A stretch of DNA of 64,000 nt from Methanoregula sp. (lineage in GTDB: Archaea > Halobacteriota > Methanomicrobia > Methanomicrobiales > Methanospirillaceae): positions 2,050,741-2,114,740 of the forward strand of contig CP112999.1 of NCBI GenBank assembly GCA_026625165.1. The letters run 5' to 3'. The translations under genes and the position numbers were made by a program. Below are positions 9,233 through 16,500 of this stretch, piece after piece. Positions within the stretch are counted from its first letter, which is position 1, and each line of letters starts with the position of its first letter. The notes beneath the pieces were generated by a model. The model ran no database searches, was not told the DNA's origin, and saw nothing but the letters and a program-made list of their open reading frames with translations.

Positions 9233-9817
9233 ATGATATTGAACCTGGCAAATTTCCTGTATCGCTCCTCTGCAAACGGTCCCGGGATCCGCGCAGCCCT
9301 CTGGGTGCAGGGGTGTCCCATCCACTGCAAGGGCTGTTATAACGAGGAGTTCTGGTCGTTTGAACCGAAGATGGCGGTAGAAGTTGGTGCACTGGCAGAA
9401 CAGATCACAAGGATCGAAGGGATCGAAGGAGTGACCTTCAGCGGCGGGGAGCCATTTTCACAGGCAGAAGCACTTGCACAGCTCGGGCAGGTTCTAATCA
9501 AAAAGGACTTAAATATCATTACATTTACCGGCTACCCGTACGACCACCTTATAACCGGAAATGATCCGGCATGGAAGGAATTGCTTGATGTAACCGACCT
9601 CCTTATTGCCGGGCCATATATCGCAGAGAACCGTTGCGACTCTGCGCTGTTTGGGTCTTCGAATCAGTCTCTAATCTTTTTGACCTCCCGGTTCAAAGGC
9701 CACCCGGATCTTGGCCGTGCTGCAACACAGAAGACGGAATTCATCATCGGACCGGACGGGACCGTCATAACAACAGGCTTTCCGGACAATGAGACCTTAA
9801 CGGAGATCTGGTCCTAG
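9233..9817 (+). CDS. Radical SAM protein, NrdG-like, first gene of the Ycf35/Ycf46 operon
   Basis: A 194-residue minimal radical SAM protein. The [4Fe-4S]-binding cysteines are C28, C32 and C35 in CPIHCKGC, and the SAM-binding GGEP motif is FSGGEPFSQ (about residues 65-73). Size and sequence resemble the activase of anaerobic ribonucleotide reductase, but no nrdD lies in the window. The gene leads an operon with a Ycf35-type gene 21 nt downstream, so a dedicated role in that system is more likely: activating a partner, modifying a peptide, or serving as an iron-sulfur redox component. The start ATG has only a weak ribosome-binding site, which would fit a leaderless transcript. Confidence 0.85.
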   Translation: MILNLANFLYRSSANGPGIRAALWVQGCPIHCKGCYNEEFWSFEPKMAVEVGALAEQITRIEGIEGVTFSGGEPFSQAEALAQLGQVLIKKDLNIITFTGYPYDHLITGNDPAWKELLDVTDLLIAGPYIAENRCDSALFGSSNQSLIFLTSRFKGHPDLGRAATQKTEFIIGPDGTVITTGFPDNETLTEIWS

Positions 9818-9838
9818 ATCCAGCGGAGGTGAGGTGAC

Positions 9839-10237
9839 ATGTCGCATTTCAGCCGTTTAAAAACCCAGTTCAAGAGCAGGGAGGTTCTGACTGAATGCCT
9901 CCAGGAGATGGGGTATGAGATTGAGACCAACAGGACGATTAAGGGATACGCAGGACACGAATTTGTGGACTTCTCAATAAAGACAAAGAATGGTTATGGG
10001 ATTGGCTTCCGGTTAAACGACCAGGGCACCTATGACATCATAGCCGACTGGTGGGGGGTCAGAGGGACAAAGCAGGAGAACCTAATTGACGGGCTGCAGG
10101 AACGCATAAACAGGATCCAGCGTGAATATGCCATCAGGATGGTGATGGAGCAGACCCGGCAAAACGGTTTTGAGATGATCGAGAGGGCTGACGAGAAAGA
10201 CGGGTCAGTCCGGATTGTCGTACGCAGGTGGGCGTGA
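9839..10237 (+). CDS. ycf35: Ycf35/DUF1257 family protein
   Basis: A 132-residue protein that opens MSHFSRLKTQF, the hallmark of the DUF1257/Ycf35 family of cyanobacteria and plastids, and continues with the family's ECLQEMGY and aromatic-rich YDIIADWWGV segments. A strong GGAGGTGA site (9826-9833) lies just before ATG 9839. The biochemical role of Ycf35 is unknown. Its usual neighbours, a Ycf46-type AAA+ ATPase and a DUF2997 protein, are both in this operon, which strengthens the call. No catalytic motif is visible; it may be an adaptor. Confidence 0.85.
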   Translation: MSHFSRLKTQFKSREVLTECLQEMGYEIETNRTIKGYAGHEFVDFSIKTKNGYGIGFRLNDQGTYDIIADWWGVRGTKQENLIDGLQERINRIQREYAIRMVMEQTRQNGFEMIERADEKDGSVRIVVRRWA

Positions 10238-10243
10238 TTCGGA

Positions 10244-11791
10244 ATGCCACAACACGAACCTGATTTCAAAAAAAGGATCGAGATCTACCTGCGGGCAAGG
10301 ATCACCCTCATCATTATTGTAACTCCTGAAGAGGAGCGTGTCATAGGGATGGTCAAGGAAGTATGCGACCAGTGGACCCCGCCACGCCAGTGCCTCTCAT
10401 GGGATGTTGTCGAGGGTTTTTGCGCAGTCTCCGGGGCAAAGACCTTCAACAGTTCGTCAAGGGACCTGCTCCTTGCACTTGATGATATGAACAAGACAGA
10501 CGAGAATGCTGTCATCATGTTAAAGGACTTCCATGACTTCTGGAACAACCCCCCGATCAGGCGCAAGATCCGGAACCTTGCCCAGAAGTTCCGGTACAGC
10601 CGGCGTTCCATCATCATTACCACACCGGTCTTAAAGATTCCGGACGAGATCCGCGACGAGGCTGTTGTTATTCATCTCCCTCCTCCGTCAGCTGATGAAC
10701 TTGAAAAGGAACTTGAAAAACTGGTTCAGACAAGCGGGATAAAGATGTCGCTGACCTCGTTGGGACGGGAGAAGCTGATCCAAGCATCCCTTGGGATGAC
10801 TCTGAACCAGGCACGGCGGGCGTTTGCAAAAGCTATTGTCACGCACGGGCAACTGGACGACAGGGATATTGAACTGATCGTTGCCGAGAAAAAAGATATC
10901 CTCTCACAGTGTGAAGCCCTGGAATTCTACAGCATTACAGAAACCCCGGATCGTGTGGGCGGGCTGCTGGTGTTAAAAGAATGGCTCCGGCTTCGCGAGC
11001 GGGCTTTTACAAGGGAGGCACGGGAATACGGGCTCCCGGCCCCAAAAGGGATCGCACTGATCGGCATACCAGGGACCGGCAAGAGCCTGACCGCAAAGAT
11101 GATTGCCGGGCTCTGGAGGCTCCCGCTCCTCCGGCTCGATGTTGGGGCGCTCTTTGGGAGCCTCCTTGGTGACTCGGAAGAGCGGACCCGGAGGGCCCTG
11201 ACCCTTGCCGAAACAATATCGCCGTGCATTCTGTGGGTGGACGAGATGGAAAAAGCCTTTGCAACCGGTTACGGGGATTCGGGGACAAGCCAGAGGGTAT
11301 TTGCACACCTGCTCACCTGGATGCAGGACAAGACTGCCCCCTGTTTTGTGGTTGCTACGGCAAACAACATCTCTGCACTGCCCCCTGAACTGTTGAGGAA
11401 AGGGCGGTTTGATGAGATCTTCTTCCTCGACCTCCCCAACGCGGCGGAGAGGAGGGAGATCTTCACCGTGCACTTAAAGAAGAGAAAATGTCTCCAGGAT
11501 GAGTTCGACCTTGACCTGCTTGCAAAAGCGTCTGAGGGGTATGTTGGTGCCGAGATCGAGCAGACCATCATCGATGCCATGTACCTTGCATTCAACCAGA
11601 ACATGCGGAAGATCACGACCGATGACATCCTTGCCTGCCTTGCCCGGCAGGTCCCGCTCTCAAAGTCCAAACGGGAAACAGTCGAGGCTCTGCGTGCCTG
11701 GCTGAACGAGGGCCGTGCCATATCCGCATCCTCAATGGAGGGGATGAAAGCCCCGGTTACCTCCAATATCCAGCTTGACCCTCTCCGTTAA
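10244..11791 (+). CDS. ycf46: Ycf46-like AAA+ ATPase
   Basis: A 515-residue protein with an N-terminal degenerate P-loop-like domain (about 1-220, without a Walker lysine) and a C-terminal AAA+ module. Seen: Walker A GIPGTGKS (residues 273-280), Walker B CILWVDEME (about 327-335), a sensor-1 region VVATANN, and the arginine-finger segment RKGRFDE (about 385-391), then the small helical lid. This is the Ycf46 architecture, a classic-AAA relative of FtsH/p97-type remodelling ATPases but without a protease. It starts 6 nt after ycf35 and is followed 18 nt later by the WD40 gene. It is probably the motor of the system and likely acts as a ring. Confidence 0.9.
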   Translation: MPQHEPDFKKRIEIYLRARITLIIIVTPEEERVIGMVKEVCDQWTPPRQCLSWDVVEGFCAVSGAKTFNSSSRDLLLALDDMNKTDENAVIMLKDFHDFWNNPPIRRKIRNLAQKFRYSRRSIIITTPVLKIPDEIRDEAVVIHLPPPSADELEKELEKLVQTSGIKMSLTSLGREKLIQASLGMTLNQARRAFAKAIVTHGQLDDRDIELIVAEKKDILSQCEALEFYSITETPDRVGGLLVLKEWLRLRERAFTREAREYGLPAPKGIALIGIPGTGKSLTAKMIAGLWRLPLLRLDVGALFGSLLGDSEERTRRALTLAETISPCILWVDEMEKAFATGYGDSGTSQRVFAHLLTWMQDKTAPCFVVATANNISALPPELLRKGRFDEIFFLDLPNAAERREIFTVHLKKRKCLQDEFDLDLLAKASEGYVGAEIEQTIIDAMYLAFNQNMRKITTDDILACLARQVPLSKSKRETVEALRAWLNEGRAISASSMEGMKAPVTSNIQLDPLR

Positions 11792-11809
11792 TCCCGGCAT
11801 TGAACACAT

Positions 11810-14641
11810 ATGCACGCATACCTGACAGCCCGCCAGAAGAAGATAAGGTCCTCACTCCCCCTTATTGGCGGCTTTATAAGGATGAAAGCCGCCAAGACTC
11901 TTGCCAGGGACGCCTCCCGCGGGGATACCCGGGCAGTCCGGATCCTTTCGGATGCACTCATTGCGTCAGATGACCCGGTTGTCAGAGATATTGCAGAGGG
12001 TTCTTTATCGGGTTTAGGCACTCCTGAAGCAATTGATGCATTCTGCGAATATGTCATTTCCACCAATGCTGAATCCCTCCTGAAAATTGTAAAAAAGAGA
12101 GGGTATTTTCCAAAGCATGATGAGAGGAAGGCGCTCTTCTTTTTTATCACAGGGCAGTTCCAGCAGTACGAGGACCTCGATTTTCAGGATGGCCGCCCTC
12201 TCCTCAGGAAGGCACTTGGGAGTTCCTCATTTGTGGTCCGGAAAAGGGTGCTTGAGACAGCACGCCGGGCGGGGCGCAGTTACCTGTTAAAAGATGTCTT
12301 TACCGGAAAGGAGAACCGTACAAGGATTGCAAATGTCTCATACAGTGAATGGAGATCGCTCATCGATGAATCTGTGGCTCAACAGCAATGGGATGAACTG
12401 TGGGACCTTCTGTTCATTTCGCCGCCCGGGTTGTCAGCTGAGATCGCACAGGTTCTTAATAAAGCGAAATGGATGCCAAATGATGAGGATGTGACACTCT
12501 GGTCTGATTTGAGGGTATCATGTCCCGAAAAACCGTTGCATCTCCATTTCACTGACAAGGGGTGCAGGACTCTGGACGCCCGCACCGACTGGGTAAACTG
12601 TCTTGCCATCTCCCCGGACGGGAAGATCCTTGCAGGCGGGACACGTGAGGGTTCGGTCCGCTGCTGGAGCCTGCCATACGGGAACCGGGCAGCCACACTC
12701 AAAGGACATGCGGGTATAGTCTCCTGCCTTGCCATCTCCCCGGACGGCTCCATGCTCGCAAGCGGTGGTAGCGATGGTACGGTACGCCTCTGGAACCTGC
12801 CGGGCGGATGTCCCGGGCCGGCCCTCCACCACCATGCCGCGGAAGTTTCCTGCCTTGCCATCTCCCCGGACGGCTCCATGCTCGCAAGCGGTGGCAGCGA
12901 TGGTACGGTACGCCTCTGGAACCTGCCGGGCGGATGTCCTGCAAGAGAGCTGGCGGGGCATACCGGAATGATAAGGTCGCTTGTCATCTCCCCGGACGGA
13001 TCCATCCTTGCAAGCGGCAGCAACGACAATACCATCTGCCTGTGGAGCCTGCCGGAGGGTAACCTTATCCAAAAGATGACAGGTCACTCCGACTGGGTCA
13101 GATCACTTGTTGTCAGCCCCGATGGGTCCATCCTTGCAAGCGGCAGCAATGACGGGACCATCCGGCTCTGGAACCTGCCGGAGGGTAACCTTATCCAAAA
13201 GATGACAGGTCACTCCGACTGGGTCAGATCACTTGTTGTCAGCCCCGATGGGTCCATCCTTGCAAGCGGCAGCAATGACGGGACCATCCGGCTCTGGAGC
13301 CTGCCGCAGAAAAAGACACTCAGGACACTCAAAGGGCACCATAGTGCCATCACCACGCTGGCAGTCACCCGGAATGGATCCCTGCTCATCAGCGGGTGCG
13401 ATAGCGGCACCATAAAGATCTGGAGCCTTCCCGGCGGCCAGCTAAAAAAGACTCTCAACGGACATGTGGGGCAGATCACATCACTTGCAGTCAGCCCAAA
13501 CAGCACCCTCTTTCTCAGCTGCAGCTGGGACGACACGGTCCGGGTATGGACCCTTCCGGACGGGGAATTTATGTCCGCCTTTGACGAGGGGAGGGCCTCA
13601 GGCAGGTCACTTGCCATCATGCCGGACGGGTCAAGGCTTGCCACGAGCGGGGGGGATCATACAGTACGCATGTTGCGGCTTGATGACGGGATGCCACTCA
13701 CCAGATTTGATTTCCCCAATGGCAGGGTATCGTGCCTTGCTGCATCCTGCGATGGGAAGATACTTGCCGCTGGCACTGATTCGGGTACCATTCTGCTGCT
13801 GGATGCGGGGTCGAATCAGGTTGTTGCCACCTTGGAGGGGCATGCCGGCAGGATAAGCTGCCTTGCGTTTTCCCCGGACAGTTCACTTCTTGCGTCCGGA
13901 AGCTGGGACGAGAGCATCAGGATTTGGAGCCTTCCTGATGGCAGGCATGATACTACATTAAGGGGGCATACCAGCACCGTCACTGCCCTTTCATTTGTGC
14001 ACGGCAGTGATTTGCTGGCAAGTGCGAGCAATGACAGGACAATACATCTCTGGAATGTCCCTCAAAGAAAGAAGATTGCTTTGCTCCAGGGGCATTCCGG
14101 GGTTGTGACCAGTCTTGCGGCCCTCCCGGATGGCAGTTCCATGGTAAGTGCTGGCTGGGACGGGGACATACGGTTCTGGGGTATTCCGGACGGCGCCCTG
14201 ATCAATTCAATGAATGCCATCGGAGGACGGGTTCTCTGCCTTTCGGTCTCGGCGGACGGATTGTTGTTTGCTACCGGAAATGATGATAGCACCATCGGCA
14301 TCTTCAGGCTGCCGGATGGCATTTGTCTCCAGACCCACAAAGGGCTCAAATCCCCGGTGGTCTCCCTCTCCATTACTCCAGACGGGAGAACACTTGTCGC
14401 CGGCTGCCGTGAAGGATCAATTTTTATATTCCGCCTTCCCTTTGTTAAACCGCTCGCCCTTGCATCACCGGCAGACCTTGAATATGTCCAGCAGGTATCC
14501 GCCAAGCTCAGCGACCAGGAAGCCATGTACAAGGGCTGGCTGTTCCTTGAGACATTACTGAGGGGTAAATTCCGCAATGACATTGCGATCGGTGAACCTG
14601 CAGTCACAGCCGGGATCTATGACATTGAGATCGTGGAGTGA
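11810..14641 (+). CDS. HEAT-like plus 15-repeat WD40 protein
   Basis: A 943-residue protein. Residues 1 to about 250 are alpha-helical with HEAT/armadillo-like spacing (for example VRKRVLETARRAGRSYLL). Residues about 255-877 hold 15 WD40 repeats of about 42 residues, most with the 'SPDGSxLASGSxDGTIRLW' pattern and a closing GH; 15 repeats would build two propellers, such as 7 plus 8 blades. A 65-residue alpha/beta tail follows. No enzymatic motif is seen, so it is probably a scaffold or recognition protein. Repeats 2-3 and 4-6 are nearly identical in DNA as well as protein, a sign of recent copying. It overlaps the Hsp70 gene by 4 nt, pointing to coupled translation. Confidence 0.9.
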   Translation: MHAYLTARQKKIRSSLPLIGGFIRMKAAKTLARDASRGDTRAVRILSDALIASDDPVVRDIAEGSLSGLGTPEAIDAFCEYVISTNAESLLKIVKKRGYFPKHDERKALFFFITGQFQQYEDLDFQDGRPLLRKALGSSSFVVRKRVLETARRAGRSYLLKDVFTGKENRTRIANVSYSEWRSLIDESVAQQQWDELWDLLFISPPGLSAEIAQVLNKAKWMPNDEDVTLWSDLRVSCPEKPLHLHFTDKGCRTLDARTDWVNCLAISPDGKILAGGTREGSVRCWSLPYGNRAATLKGHAGIVSCLAISPDGSMLASGGSDGTVRLWNLPGGCPGPALHHHAAEVSCLAISPDGSMLASGGSDGTVRLWNLPGGCPARELAGHTGMIRSLVISPDGSILASGSNDNTICLWSLPEGNLIQKMTGHSDWVRSLVVSPDGSILASGSNDGTIRLWNLPEGNLIQKMTGHSDWVRSLVVSPDGSILASGSNDGTIRLWSLPQKKTLRTLKGHHSAITTLAVTRNGSLLISGCDSGTIKIWSLPGGQLKKTLNGHVGQITSLAVSPNSTLFLSCSWDDTVRVWTLPDGEFMSAFDEGRASGRSLAIMPDGSRLATSGGDHTVRMLRLDDGMPLTRFDFPNGRVSCLAASCDGKILAAGTDSGTILLLDAGSNQVVATLEGHAGRISCLAFSPDSSLLASGSWDESIRIWSLPDGRHDTTLRGHTSTVTALSFVHGSDLLASASNDRTIHLWNVPQRKKIALLQGHSGVVTSLAALPDGSSMVSAGWDGDIRFWGIPDGALINSMNAIGGRVLCLSVSADGLLFATGNDDSTIGIFRLPDGICLQTHKGLKSPVVSLSITPDGRTLVAGCREGSIFIFRLPFVKPLALASPADLEYVQQVSAKLSDQEAMYKGWLFLETLLRGKFRNDIAIGEPAVTAGIYDIEIVE
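12701..13330 (+). repeat. Tandem 126-bp repeats inside the WD40 gene
   Basis: Blocks repeat at exactly 126 nt (42 codons), for example 12725 to 12851 and 13081 to 13207, with long stretches identical at synonymous positions. Other WD40 units in the same gene have diverged, so the identity reflects recent duplication or gene conversion rather than protein constraint. Confidence 0.85.
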
Positions 14642-16257
14642 TTAAAGAGATGACAGGACGCCTTGCTGTGGATTTCGGGACGAGCAACACGGTAGTCACG
14701 GTCTGGGACAGCGAAGCAGGGGGGGCACGCCCCCTTAATCTGCATGAATGGTCACGGCAATTAACAAAAGGGCTCGGCGGAAACGGTCATGAACGGAGCT
14801 GGGTCATCCCTTCCCTGATTCATTATTCTTCGGGCGGTGAACAGTGGCTGGGACAGCAGGTCATCGATAAGGGTCTTAATGGTTCACCTGCGACATTCCG
14901 GTGGCTCAAGCACTATATCAAGCAGCAGAGTGCGGTGAACGTGAACGTATGTGGCAGGCAGGTAAATTATTTCAAAGCCGGTGAGGATTTCCTATCTGCC
15001 ATACTCATGGCGATAGCCGGGGAGATCCAGCTTGGTGATGAGGAGGTCGCATTCACCGTACCGGTCGAGGCTTTTGAACATTACGAGAACTGGCTCGCCA
15101 ATGTTGCAGAAAAATCAGGGATAAGGCGCTTTGCCCTCATTGACGAGGCGTCAGCAGCAGCTATCGGATATGGCGTCCAGAGTAAAAAAGAGGATATTTT
15201 CATGGTCTTTGATTTCGGCGGCGGGACACTTGACATCTCGATAGTCCTGAATGAGCCTGTGTCGTGCGGCAGTTCCCGACACCGCTGCCGGGTCATCGGC
15301 AAGGCAGGTGAAGACCTCGGAGGGTCGCAGATCGACCGCTGGTTATTTTTGGAGATGTTGTCACGTATCGGGCTTGGGGCAGAGTCTGGTGAAGCCCGTA
15401 CTTTGGGGCATGTGCTATTGGCACAGTGCGAACAGGCAAAGGAGAGCCTCTCGTTCCAGGAGCGGGCTGAGATCAACATTACCGATCCGGTATCCGGCCA
15501 AACCCTCAAGGCCGACATTACCCGCAACGAGTTCGAACAGTTGCTCGACCGTCACGAGTTCTTCACCCGCATCCACATGACCCTCCAGCGGGCGCTGAAC
15601 GGGGCGTTCTCCCGCGGATACCAGGAAGACCAGATCTCCTCGATCCTCATGGTCGGGGGTTGCAGTTACATCCCGTCGGTGCAGACCCTCATCCGGCAGC
15701 GTTTCGGGACTTCGCGTGTAAAGTTCGACCGCCCGTTTGATGCCGTTGCACAGGGGGCTGCGGCATTTGTGAGCGGGACTGAACTCTGCGATTATATCCA
15801 GCACGATTATGCAATCCGGTACTGGAACCCGCAGTTCTCGAAATACGAATTCAGGCCTCTGGTCTCACGGGGAACGGCATACCCCTCAGAAGGGAATGTC
15901 GCCCGCATGCTTATCAGGGCAACCTATGACGGTCAGACCCAGATGGGGATCCCGGTATTTGAGATCGGAACTGCAGCATCCGGGAGCCACACCGGAGATA
16001 TTGAGCTGGTCAGGGATTCCGGTGGGGGGCTCCGGCTTGTGAAGAGTTCGCCAAAAGATGATGAACGGCAGGTGTATTACTGGATGAATGAGAAAATCCC
16101 GACGTTCCTTCTTGCTGAACCCCCGGCAAAGAAAGGTGAGACGAGGTTTGAGGTCACGTTTAATATTGACGGGAATAAACGGTTACTGGTATCTGCCCGT
16201 GACCTGGCGACCAATGCCTTTGTAAAAAGGGATTTTCCCGTAATCAAACTGGCATAG
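14638..16257 (+). CDS. Hsp70/DnaK-like chaperone lacking the helical lid
   Basis: A 539-residue Hsp70-family protein. The actin-fold ATPase domain is intact: phosphate-1 loop DFGTSNT (12-18), phosphate-2 DFGGGTLD (about 192-199) and the adenosine motif VGGCSYIPSV (about 340-349). A beta-sandwich-like substrate domain follows, ending with FEVTFNIDGN...LLVSARD, which matches DnaK's SBD-beta. The sequence then stops, about 100 residues short of DnaK, so the alpha-helical lid and any C-terminal tail are absent. GTG 14638 overlaps the WD40 stop (GTGA); ATG 14650 is the alternative start. No DnaJ or GrpE lies nearby. It is not the housekeeping DnaK. Confidence 0.88.
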   Translation: MIKEMTGRLAVDFGTSNTVVTVWDSEAGGARPLNLHEWSRQLTKGLGGNGHERSWVIPSLIHYSSGGEQWLGQQVIDKGLNGSPATFRWLKHYIKQQSAVNVNVCGRQVNYFKAGEDFLSAILMAIAGEIQLGDEEVAFTVPVEAFEHYENWLANVAEKSGIRRFALIDEASAAAIGYGVQSKKEDIFMVFDFGGGTLDISIVLNEPVSCGSSRHRCRVIGKAGEDLGGSQIDRWLFLEMLSRIGLGAESGEARTLGHVLLAQCEQAKESLSFQERAEINITDPVSGQTLKADITRNEFEQLLDRHEFFTRIHMTLQRALNGAFSRGYQEDQISSILMVGGCSYIPSVQTLIRQRFGTSRVKFDRPFDAVAQGAAAFVSGTELCDYIQHDYAIRYWNPQFSKYEFRPLVSRGTAYPSEGNVARMLIRATYDGQTQMGIPVFEIGTAASGSHTGDIELVRDSGGGLRLVKSSPKDDERQVYYWMNEKIPTFLLAEPPAKKGETRFEVTFNIDGNKRLLVSARDLATNAFVKRDFPVIKLA

Positions 16258-16284
16258 GAGAAAATAACATGGACTGTTCCGGGG

Positions 16285-16500
16285 GTGAACTTACTGGAGC
16301 CGCAGGAGCTTGAGATCATCATCAACAGGGAGGGCAATATCGAGGTCAGGGTACGCGGGTCAAAAGGGGACCAGTGCCTCGAGATTACCAGAGGCCTTGA
16401 GGAGAGTATAGGCAAACTCGAGCAGCGGGAGTATTCCCCTGAATATTACGAGGAACGGGTTGTTCTGCACGACGAAGGCACAATCCCAATAAAACGGTAA
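16285..16500 (+). CDS. DUF2997 small protein, last gene of the operon
   Basis: A 71-residue protein. The segment LEIIINREGNIEVRVRGSKG then CLEITRGLEESIG matches DUF2997, the small family found beside ycf35 and ycf46 in cyanobacteria. The start is GTG 16285, the only good one in frame. Oddly, the best ribosome-binding site (TAGGAG, 16255-16260) is placed for ATG 16269, which is in another frame and reaches a stop after 14 codons; a shift in the G5 run at 16281-16285 would join the two frames. This could be a leader peptide, programmed frameshift or sequence error. Function is unknown; the single conserved Cys in GDQCLEI could be a reactive or modified site. Confidence 0.8.
   Translation: MNLLEPQELEIIINREGNIEVRVRGSKGDQCLEITRGLEESIGKLEQREYSPEYYEERVVLHDEGTIPIKR

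Follow-up and report, generated by a model that had tools for sequence, protein, structure and literature searches.

In the window, a stretch of 64,000 nucleotides from the genome of Methanoregula sp. (GenBank CP112999.1, positions 2,050,741 to 2,114,740), six genes of the families radical SAM, DUF1257/Ycf35, Ycf46-type AAA+, HEAT/WD40, lidless Hsp70, and DUF2997 follow one another between positions 9233 and 16500. This block, referred to as the cassette, consists of the following genes:

9233..9817, plus strand: radical SAM protein of 194 amino acids, NrdG-like in size, with CxxxCxxC (GCPIHCKGC); Fer4_12, E 4.6e-31
9839..10237, plus strand: DUF1257 (Ycf35 family) protein of 132 amino acids; Pfam DUF1257, E 5.7e-22
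10244..11791, plus strand: Ycf46-type AAA+ ATPase of 515 amino acids; AAA and AAA_lid_3, E 6e-29
11810..14641, plus strand: WD40 protein of 943 amino acids with a probable HEAT-like N-terminus and a conserved C-terminal tail; WD40, E 1.2e-138, 14 stretches
14638..16257, plus strand: lidless Hsp70 of 539 amino acids with a GTG start, overlapping the preceding stop by 4 nucleotides; HSP70, E 3.3e-31
16285..16500, plus strand: DUF2997 protein of 71 amino acids with an invariant GxxGxxC (Cys31); Pfam DUF2997, E 7.9e-17

All six reading frames are open. The first four genes are separated by 21, 6, and 18 nucleotides, the 4-nucleotide overlap follows, and 27 nucleotides precede the DUF2997 gene. The first-pass annotation had described six same-strand genes with gaps of 6-27 nucleotides and a single 4-nucleotide overlap, and both coordinates and spacing agree with it. 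Promoter and terminator scans of the locus gave no usable signal above chance. The evidence for a single transcription unit consists of this spacing and of conserved gene order, and functions were deduced from neighbourhood and conservation.

In partial samples of genomes, DUF1257 was detected in 35 of 199 from the order, every one a member of the family Methanoregulaceae, and a sample of 295 genomes from the phylum yielded none in other families. The window genome, a single contig of 2.17 Mb from a methanogen that falls in this family together with Methanoregula and Methanolinea genomes, contains one such gene. In total, 71 Methanoregulaceae loci were examined, in two overlapping sets of 34 (whole genomes) and 37 (a named genome collection). 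Sixty of these loci are complete, and all 60 show the gene order of the window; the remaining 11 end at the boundary of a contig or of the fetched stretch, and none contradicts this order. By sequence, 46 distinct cassettes were distinguished, 38 of them complete besides the window. The six genes thus keep together, and the WD40 and Hsp70 genes, whose absence from all related loci would have refuted the first-pass annotation, are present there. Because the order is held in every untruncated locus, it is not a matter of chance.

In most relatives, the cassette adjoins genes which, from reading their sequences, we take to be endA, trpS, pheS, and pheT. Four relatives without a cassette (G011, G149, G105, and G017) possess an empty site, in which endA is directly followed by an endonuclease IV-like gene; in cassette-bearing relatives, this gene lies beyond the cassette. 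The window genome has no cassette in its endA region (525 kb) but carries it at 2.06 Mb beside a gene presumed, again from reading its sequence, to be pgk. The cassette has been relocated as a block in this genome. A tie to the flanking tRNA genes endA, trpS, and pheST was also considered and rejected as a necessary one, since the cassette of the window genome is located at another site. Since the six genes stay, disappear, and move jointly, they constitute one inherited unit. In a tree of Ycf46 proteins, the Methanoregulaceae sequences form one clade on a long stem (support 100/100), which groups with sequences from Anaerolineae, a Pseudanabaena plasmid, and one further bacterial sequence (support 100/99). 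One transfer into the ancestor of the family, in a direction that is not proven, followed mostly by descent and loss, would fit this topology best.

Conservation is distributed unevenly over the cassette. Identity of the relatives to the window proteins is 69-76% for Ycf46, 41-53% for the radical SAM protein, 42-54% for DUF1257, 32-50% for Hsp70, and 25-34% for the WD40 protein, Ycf46 thus being the most conserved. The C-terminal AAA module of the window Ycf46 contains GIPGTGKS, WVDEMEKAF, and RKGRFDE, and every member of the archaeal set retains Walker A, Walker B, and GRFDE; two distinct sequences fail the strict motif pattern, their Walker B reading ...DEMEKGF. By sequence, the nearest solved structures to this module are those of p97/Cdc48. 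The window protein is 61% identical to Levilinea Ycf46 and 44% identical over 503 amino acids, N-terminal part included, to the product of a Ycf46-like AAA gene located beside DUF1257 on a cyanobacterial chromosome (L206). The latter, on which the Ycf46-type assignment rests, is taken to be Ycf46 itself; the model libraries used contain no model of that name.

The Hsp70 is judged lidless because it stops after the substrate-binding beta domain (SBD-beta): the last part of this domain in BiP is matched by residues 486-526, and the protein terminates at residue 539, which bears out the initial description. Its phosphate-2 motif is intact in the window (DFGGGTLD). The canonical loop DxGGGTxD is present in the window and in nine of the 38 other distinct archaeal cassettes (10 of 39) and lost in 29, as counted by a strict criterion, a looser count also marking loops altered at the second Asp alone. 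In most Anaerolineae copies, the loop glycines are kept and the second Asp is replaced by His or Asn. Copies without the loop share a mean pairwise identity of 0.34 (ATPase domain) and 0.53 (SBD-beta); for loop-intact copies, the values are 0.60 and 0.59, respectively. The ATPase domain has thus relaxed, with the binding domain being held. The protein does not qualify as a canonical DnaK: SBD-beta is present, the lid is absent, and the phosphate-2 loop, intact in the window, is lost in most archaeal relatives. A separate canonical DnaK is encoded elsewhere in the window genome. The proposal that Ycf46 and Hsp70 together supply ATP-driven remodelling is therefore only half right, fitting Ycf46 with its intact motifs, but not Hsp70 in most archaeal and Anaerolineae copies. 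Since the ATPase motifs of Ycf46 are intact while the phosphate loop of Hsp70 is mostly destroyed, Ycf46 is probably the motor; binding is probably the task of Hsp70 and the WD40 protein. For the WD40 protein, 15 repeats had been proposed, which is about right, 14 passing on their own. Positions 12723-13306 of the window contain recent tandem duplications of WD40 sequence with a 126-bp period and 81-95% matches (95% at 13001-13306), and this in a protein with the lowest identities to its relatives given above.

The two small proteins are clear members of their families. DUF1257 matches PF06868 with 78.3 bits (cut-off 22.2) over model positions 1-103 of 103; its MSH start and G56 are invariant in 40 homologues, and the AlphaFold2 model has a predicted local distance difference test score (pLDDT) of 83 and a predicted template modelling score (pTM) of 0.71. 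DUF2997 matches PF11211 with 61.3 bits (cut-off 24.1); its AlphaFold2 model is weak (pTM 0.40). Only G17, G28, C31, and G43 are invariant across 32 DUF2997 homologues from several phyla, and GxxGxxC is found in 38 of 38 distinct cassettes. Fold searches with both proteins against the PDB yielded no match at E 0.001 or better, and a resemblance of DUF2997 to copper chaperones (E 0.09) was dismissed as noise. At three other loci (L182:7168-7380; L185:7208-7399; L187, 11070-10879 on the minus strand), proteins of 63-70 amino acids are encoded between Hsp70 and Ycf46. They have a DUF2997-like hairpin sequence, without a Pfam match for the one tested, and all end in LCG, a conserved end that could be a carrier-type tail.

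The radical SAM protein scores 29.2 bits with the Radical_SAM model, just below the cut-off of 29.5, and belongs to the superfamily by its CxxxCxxC motif and the Fer4_12 match. The motif is kept in 37 of 38 distinct cassettes, the probable exception (L034) being a contig that starts inside the gene. The best NCBIfam match is NrdG (TIGR02491) with 95.9 bits, below the cut-off of 126.1, and the protein is accordingly not assigned to NrdG. Class III ribonucleotide reductase, the enzyme activated by NrdG, is split in the window genome. A body of NrdD without tail (728 amino acids) is encoded at L217:1420-3606 on the minus strand (G000:C1:1529888), and the tail, a protein of 120 amino acids with zinc-ribbon cysteines and the glycyl-radical motif RVTGYL, at L218:1489-1851, also on the minus strand (178863). 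The two genes are about 1.35 Mb apart, and a two-place NrdD match was obtained in 10 of 10 relatives tested.

The first-pass annotation had presented the gene set as something a methanogen carries, but it is not peculiar to methanogens: the same six families plus GrpE are present in Anaerolineae, the core in Bacillota, and related sets in Actinomycetota. In Anaerolineae (Levilinea, Ornatilinea, Anaerolinea; L106-L115), genes for Ycf46, a repeat protein, Hsp70, DUF1257, DUF2997, a radical SAM protein, and a WD40 protein form one run as in the window, but they are arranged in another order, often with a second WD40/HEAT gene and with GrpE in some, and their Hsp70 often deviates at the second Asp as described. 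The Pseudanabaena plasmid carries GrpE, Hsp70, DUF1257, DUF2997, Ycf46, and WD40; GrpE adjoins Hsp70 in some bacteria. 'Deltaproteobacteria'-like sets (Myxococcota in one label) combine Ycf46, DUF1257, and DUF2997 with HEAT and a divergent Hsp70. Plasmid cores of four genes or nearly so (Ycf46, DUF1257 or a look-alike, DUF2997, radical SAM) were detected in Paenibacillus, Bacillus licheniformis, Rhodococcus, and Paenarthrobacter. The first three (L234, L235, L232) resemble the window in having Ycf46, DUF2997, and a radical SAM-type protein nearby, with an annotated DUF1257 in Paenibacillus and B. licheniformis, but no annotated Hsp70 or WD40 gene is found alongside, and in B. licheniformis the radical SAM gene is located about 3 kb upstream. 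The DUF1257 slot of the actinobacterial sets is occupied by an unannotated protein of 141 amino acids without a Pfam match, which may be DUF1257-like. In Treponema, the radical SAM gene is paired with Ycf46. The T. succinifaciens plasmid pTRESU01 contains DUF1257 (L066:8001-8408) and the radical SAM-Ycf46 pair (L231:4351-6506) about 54 kb apart, both among contractile-tail genes; a family link to contractile injection systems is possible.

In cyanobacteria, DUF1257 was detected in 59 of 117 sampled genomes. A duf2997-ycf35-fed7 cluster, in which Fed7 is a 4Fe-4S ferredoxin, has been described (PMC4284462) and is also visible at locus L205. This cluster, considered together with its plastid remnants ycf35 and ycf46, resembles the window in that members of the DUF1257 and DUF2997 families are mutually adjacent and lie beside an iron-sulfur protein, but Fed7 replaces the radical SAM protein, and no Hsp70, HEAT, or WD40 gene is present in the chromosomal clusters examined (L202, L205). 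Elsewhere on the chromosome (L206), the cyanobacterial Ycf46-type AAA+ gene accompanies a second DUF1257. One Desmonostoc genome (L118, L201, L203) yielded seven DUF1257 and seven DUF2997 matches, several in DUF1257-DUF2997-Ycf46 cassettes, and Prochlorococcus phage P-SSM2 (L069:4802-5381) carries a DUF2997-DUF1257 pair near ferredoxin and hsp20 genes.

From these comparisons, a conserved unit emerges with intact motor motifs, an Hsp70 whose ATPase decays while its binding domain is conserved, a recurring iron-sulfur partner, and an invariant DUF2997 cysteine. We tentatively favour, with slightly less than even confidence, the interpretation that the six genes encode one dedicated machine for protein remodelling or maturation, in which an AAA+ protein acts with an iron-sulfur/radical SAM partner. 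Ycf46 would be the ATP-driven motor, and DUF1257 and DUF2997 would be small conserved adaptor subunits coupling it to the iron-sulfur partner, presumably the NrdG-like radical SAM protein in the archaeal cassette, Anaerolineae, Paenibacillus, and actinobacteria, and Fed7 in cyanobacteria. Clients would be bound by the HEAT/WD40 protein together with the lidless Hsp70, the latter contributing mainly SBD-beta, with ATP hydrolysis dispensable in most lineages. A redox- or radical-sensitive protein would be the likely client, which the radical SAM protein would help to open, repair, or modify. The physical complex, the adaptor roles, the nature of the client, and the radical SAM chemistry are what we infer. 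Both Cdc48/p97 and the DnaK-GrpE-ClpB machine offer parallels, the AAA+ module being closest to p97/Cdc48 and the Hsp70 possessing SBD-beta, but Ycf46 has one recognisable AAA ATPase module, and the cassette differs by an Hsp70 without lid and often without the ATPase loop, and by the additional DUF1257, DUF2997, and radical SAM proteins. Radical SAM genes stand beside Ycf46 sets in Anaerolineae, Paenibacillus, Rhodococcus, Paenarthrobacter, and Treponema. In Synechocystis, mutation of fed7 causes sensitivity to iron limitation and to oxidative, metal, and salt stress, and a two-hybrid test showed Fed7 to bind a DnaJ-like protein (PMC4284462). These cyanobacterial results, the sole experimental support found, link Fed7 independently to the Hsp70 system.

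Several points weigh against such a machine. Neighbourhood supports a shared function, not physical contact, and the adaptor role of DUF1257 and DUF2997 is a guess from size and conservation, made without a structural match. The window Hsp70 and its relatives with an intact loop could be normal ATPases. Among the Myxococcota/'Deltaproteobacteria'-like sets, a radical SAM gene was noted at L181 alone, and none was seen beside the cyanobacterial sets; the gene may for this reason be optional. A broader version, in which the cassette represents a hitherto undescribed machine class of archaea and bacteria, reduced in plastids, with a Cdc48-like motor driving iron-sulfur/radical SAM modification or repair of clients and a pseudo-Hsp70 serving solely as peptide clamp, appears doubtful, if conceivable.

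Two alternatives concern the function of the cassette as a whole. A role in general stress proteostasis would make it a DnaK/ClpB-like disaggregase or refolding system, with ATP cycling by Hsp70 as well as Ycf46 and aggregates held by the WD40/HEAT proteins. The placement of Hsp70 and GrpE beside the AAA+ gene in Anaerolineae and on the Pseudanabaena plasmid, the intact loop of the window Hsp70, and the ties of Fed7 to DnaJ and stress tolerance are consistent with it. We nevertheless regard it as unlikely, considering that most archaeal copies have lost the loop and that it is damaged in the majority of those from Anaerolineae, that the genome already encodes a canonical DnaK, and that a general disaggregase has no place for a radical SAM enzyme. 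The first-pass annotation had held a stress or conflict role to fit. In a conflict or defence system, a fast-evolving WD40 protein would sense an invader, and Ycf46 and Hsp70 would switch the system on. This idea gained little and is improbable: the cassette is present in single copy, in one order and at one preferred site, its tree follows the genera as expected from mostly vertical inheritance, no effector domain (nuclease, protease, or pore) was recognised in its proteins, and its homologues are plastid housekeeping genes. PADLOC returned generic AAA (IetA) and HEAT/WD40 hits and weak radical SAM/Hsp70 hits, but no specific system, and the AAA part resembles IetA just as an AAA ATPase. Divergence of the WD40 and Hsp70 proteins, much faster than that of Ycf46, the recent WD40 tandem duplication, absence of the cassette from at least 20 listed genomes of the family, and the occurrence of core sets on plasmids speak for it weakly.

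The other two alternatives start from single proteins. The radical SAM gene might be a mere activase gene for NrdD parked in an unrelated operon, as it gives the top NrdG score of the genome (96 bits) and NrdD is split there, the glycyl-radical subunit being separate. Yet this score is under the NrdG cut-off, a second, NrdG2-like radical SAM gene is present in the genome, and the gene accompanies Ycf46 sets across phyla. Six relatives without a cassette contain NrdD and the separate tail, and because the split enzyme is retained there, activation of NrdD as the sole role was ruled out; the activase explanation altogether is very improbable. Alternatively, DUF2997 could be the substrate of the radical SAM protein, its GxxGxxC loop being modified or carrying a radical or thiol, with Ycf46 loading or unloading it. 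The four sole cross-phylum invariants of DUF2997, the small NrdG-like radical SAM protein, which suggests a protein substrate, and the adjacency of both genes in Anaerolineae and Paenibacillus point in this direction, but the motif persists in cyanobacteria, where the neighbour is a ferredoxin, and the AlphaFold2 model is weak, so that we consider this decidedly unlikely.

No description of the whole six-family system was found in the open-access literature searched. Ycf35 and Ycf46 are kept in cyanobacteria and red-algal plastids without known biochemistry; for Synechocystis, Jiang et al. (2015), as cited in PMC12172450, reportedly tied Ycf46 to the utilisation of CO2. Travelling partners of these two proteins are revealed by the archaeal and Anaerolineae cassettes, and the Paenibacillus and Bacillus sets place the core of Ycf46, DUF1257, DUF2997, and an iron-sulfur protein in culturable bacteria, which offers a practical route to its function. 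That the Hsp70 ATPase decays while the adjoining binding domain is conserved makes a clear and testable prediction on how the putative machine would work.

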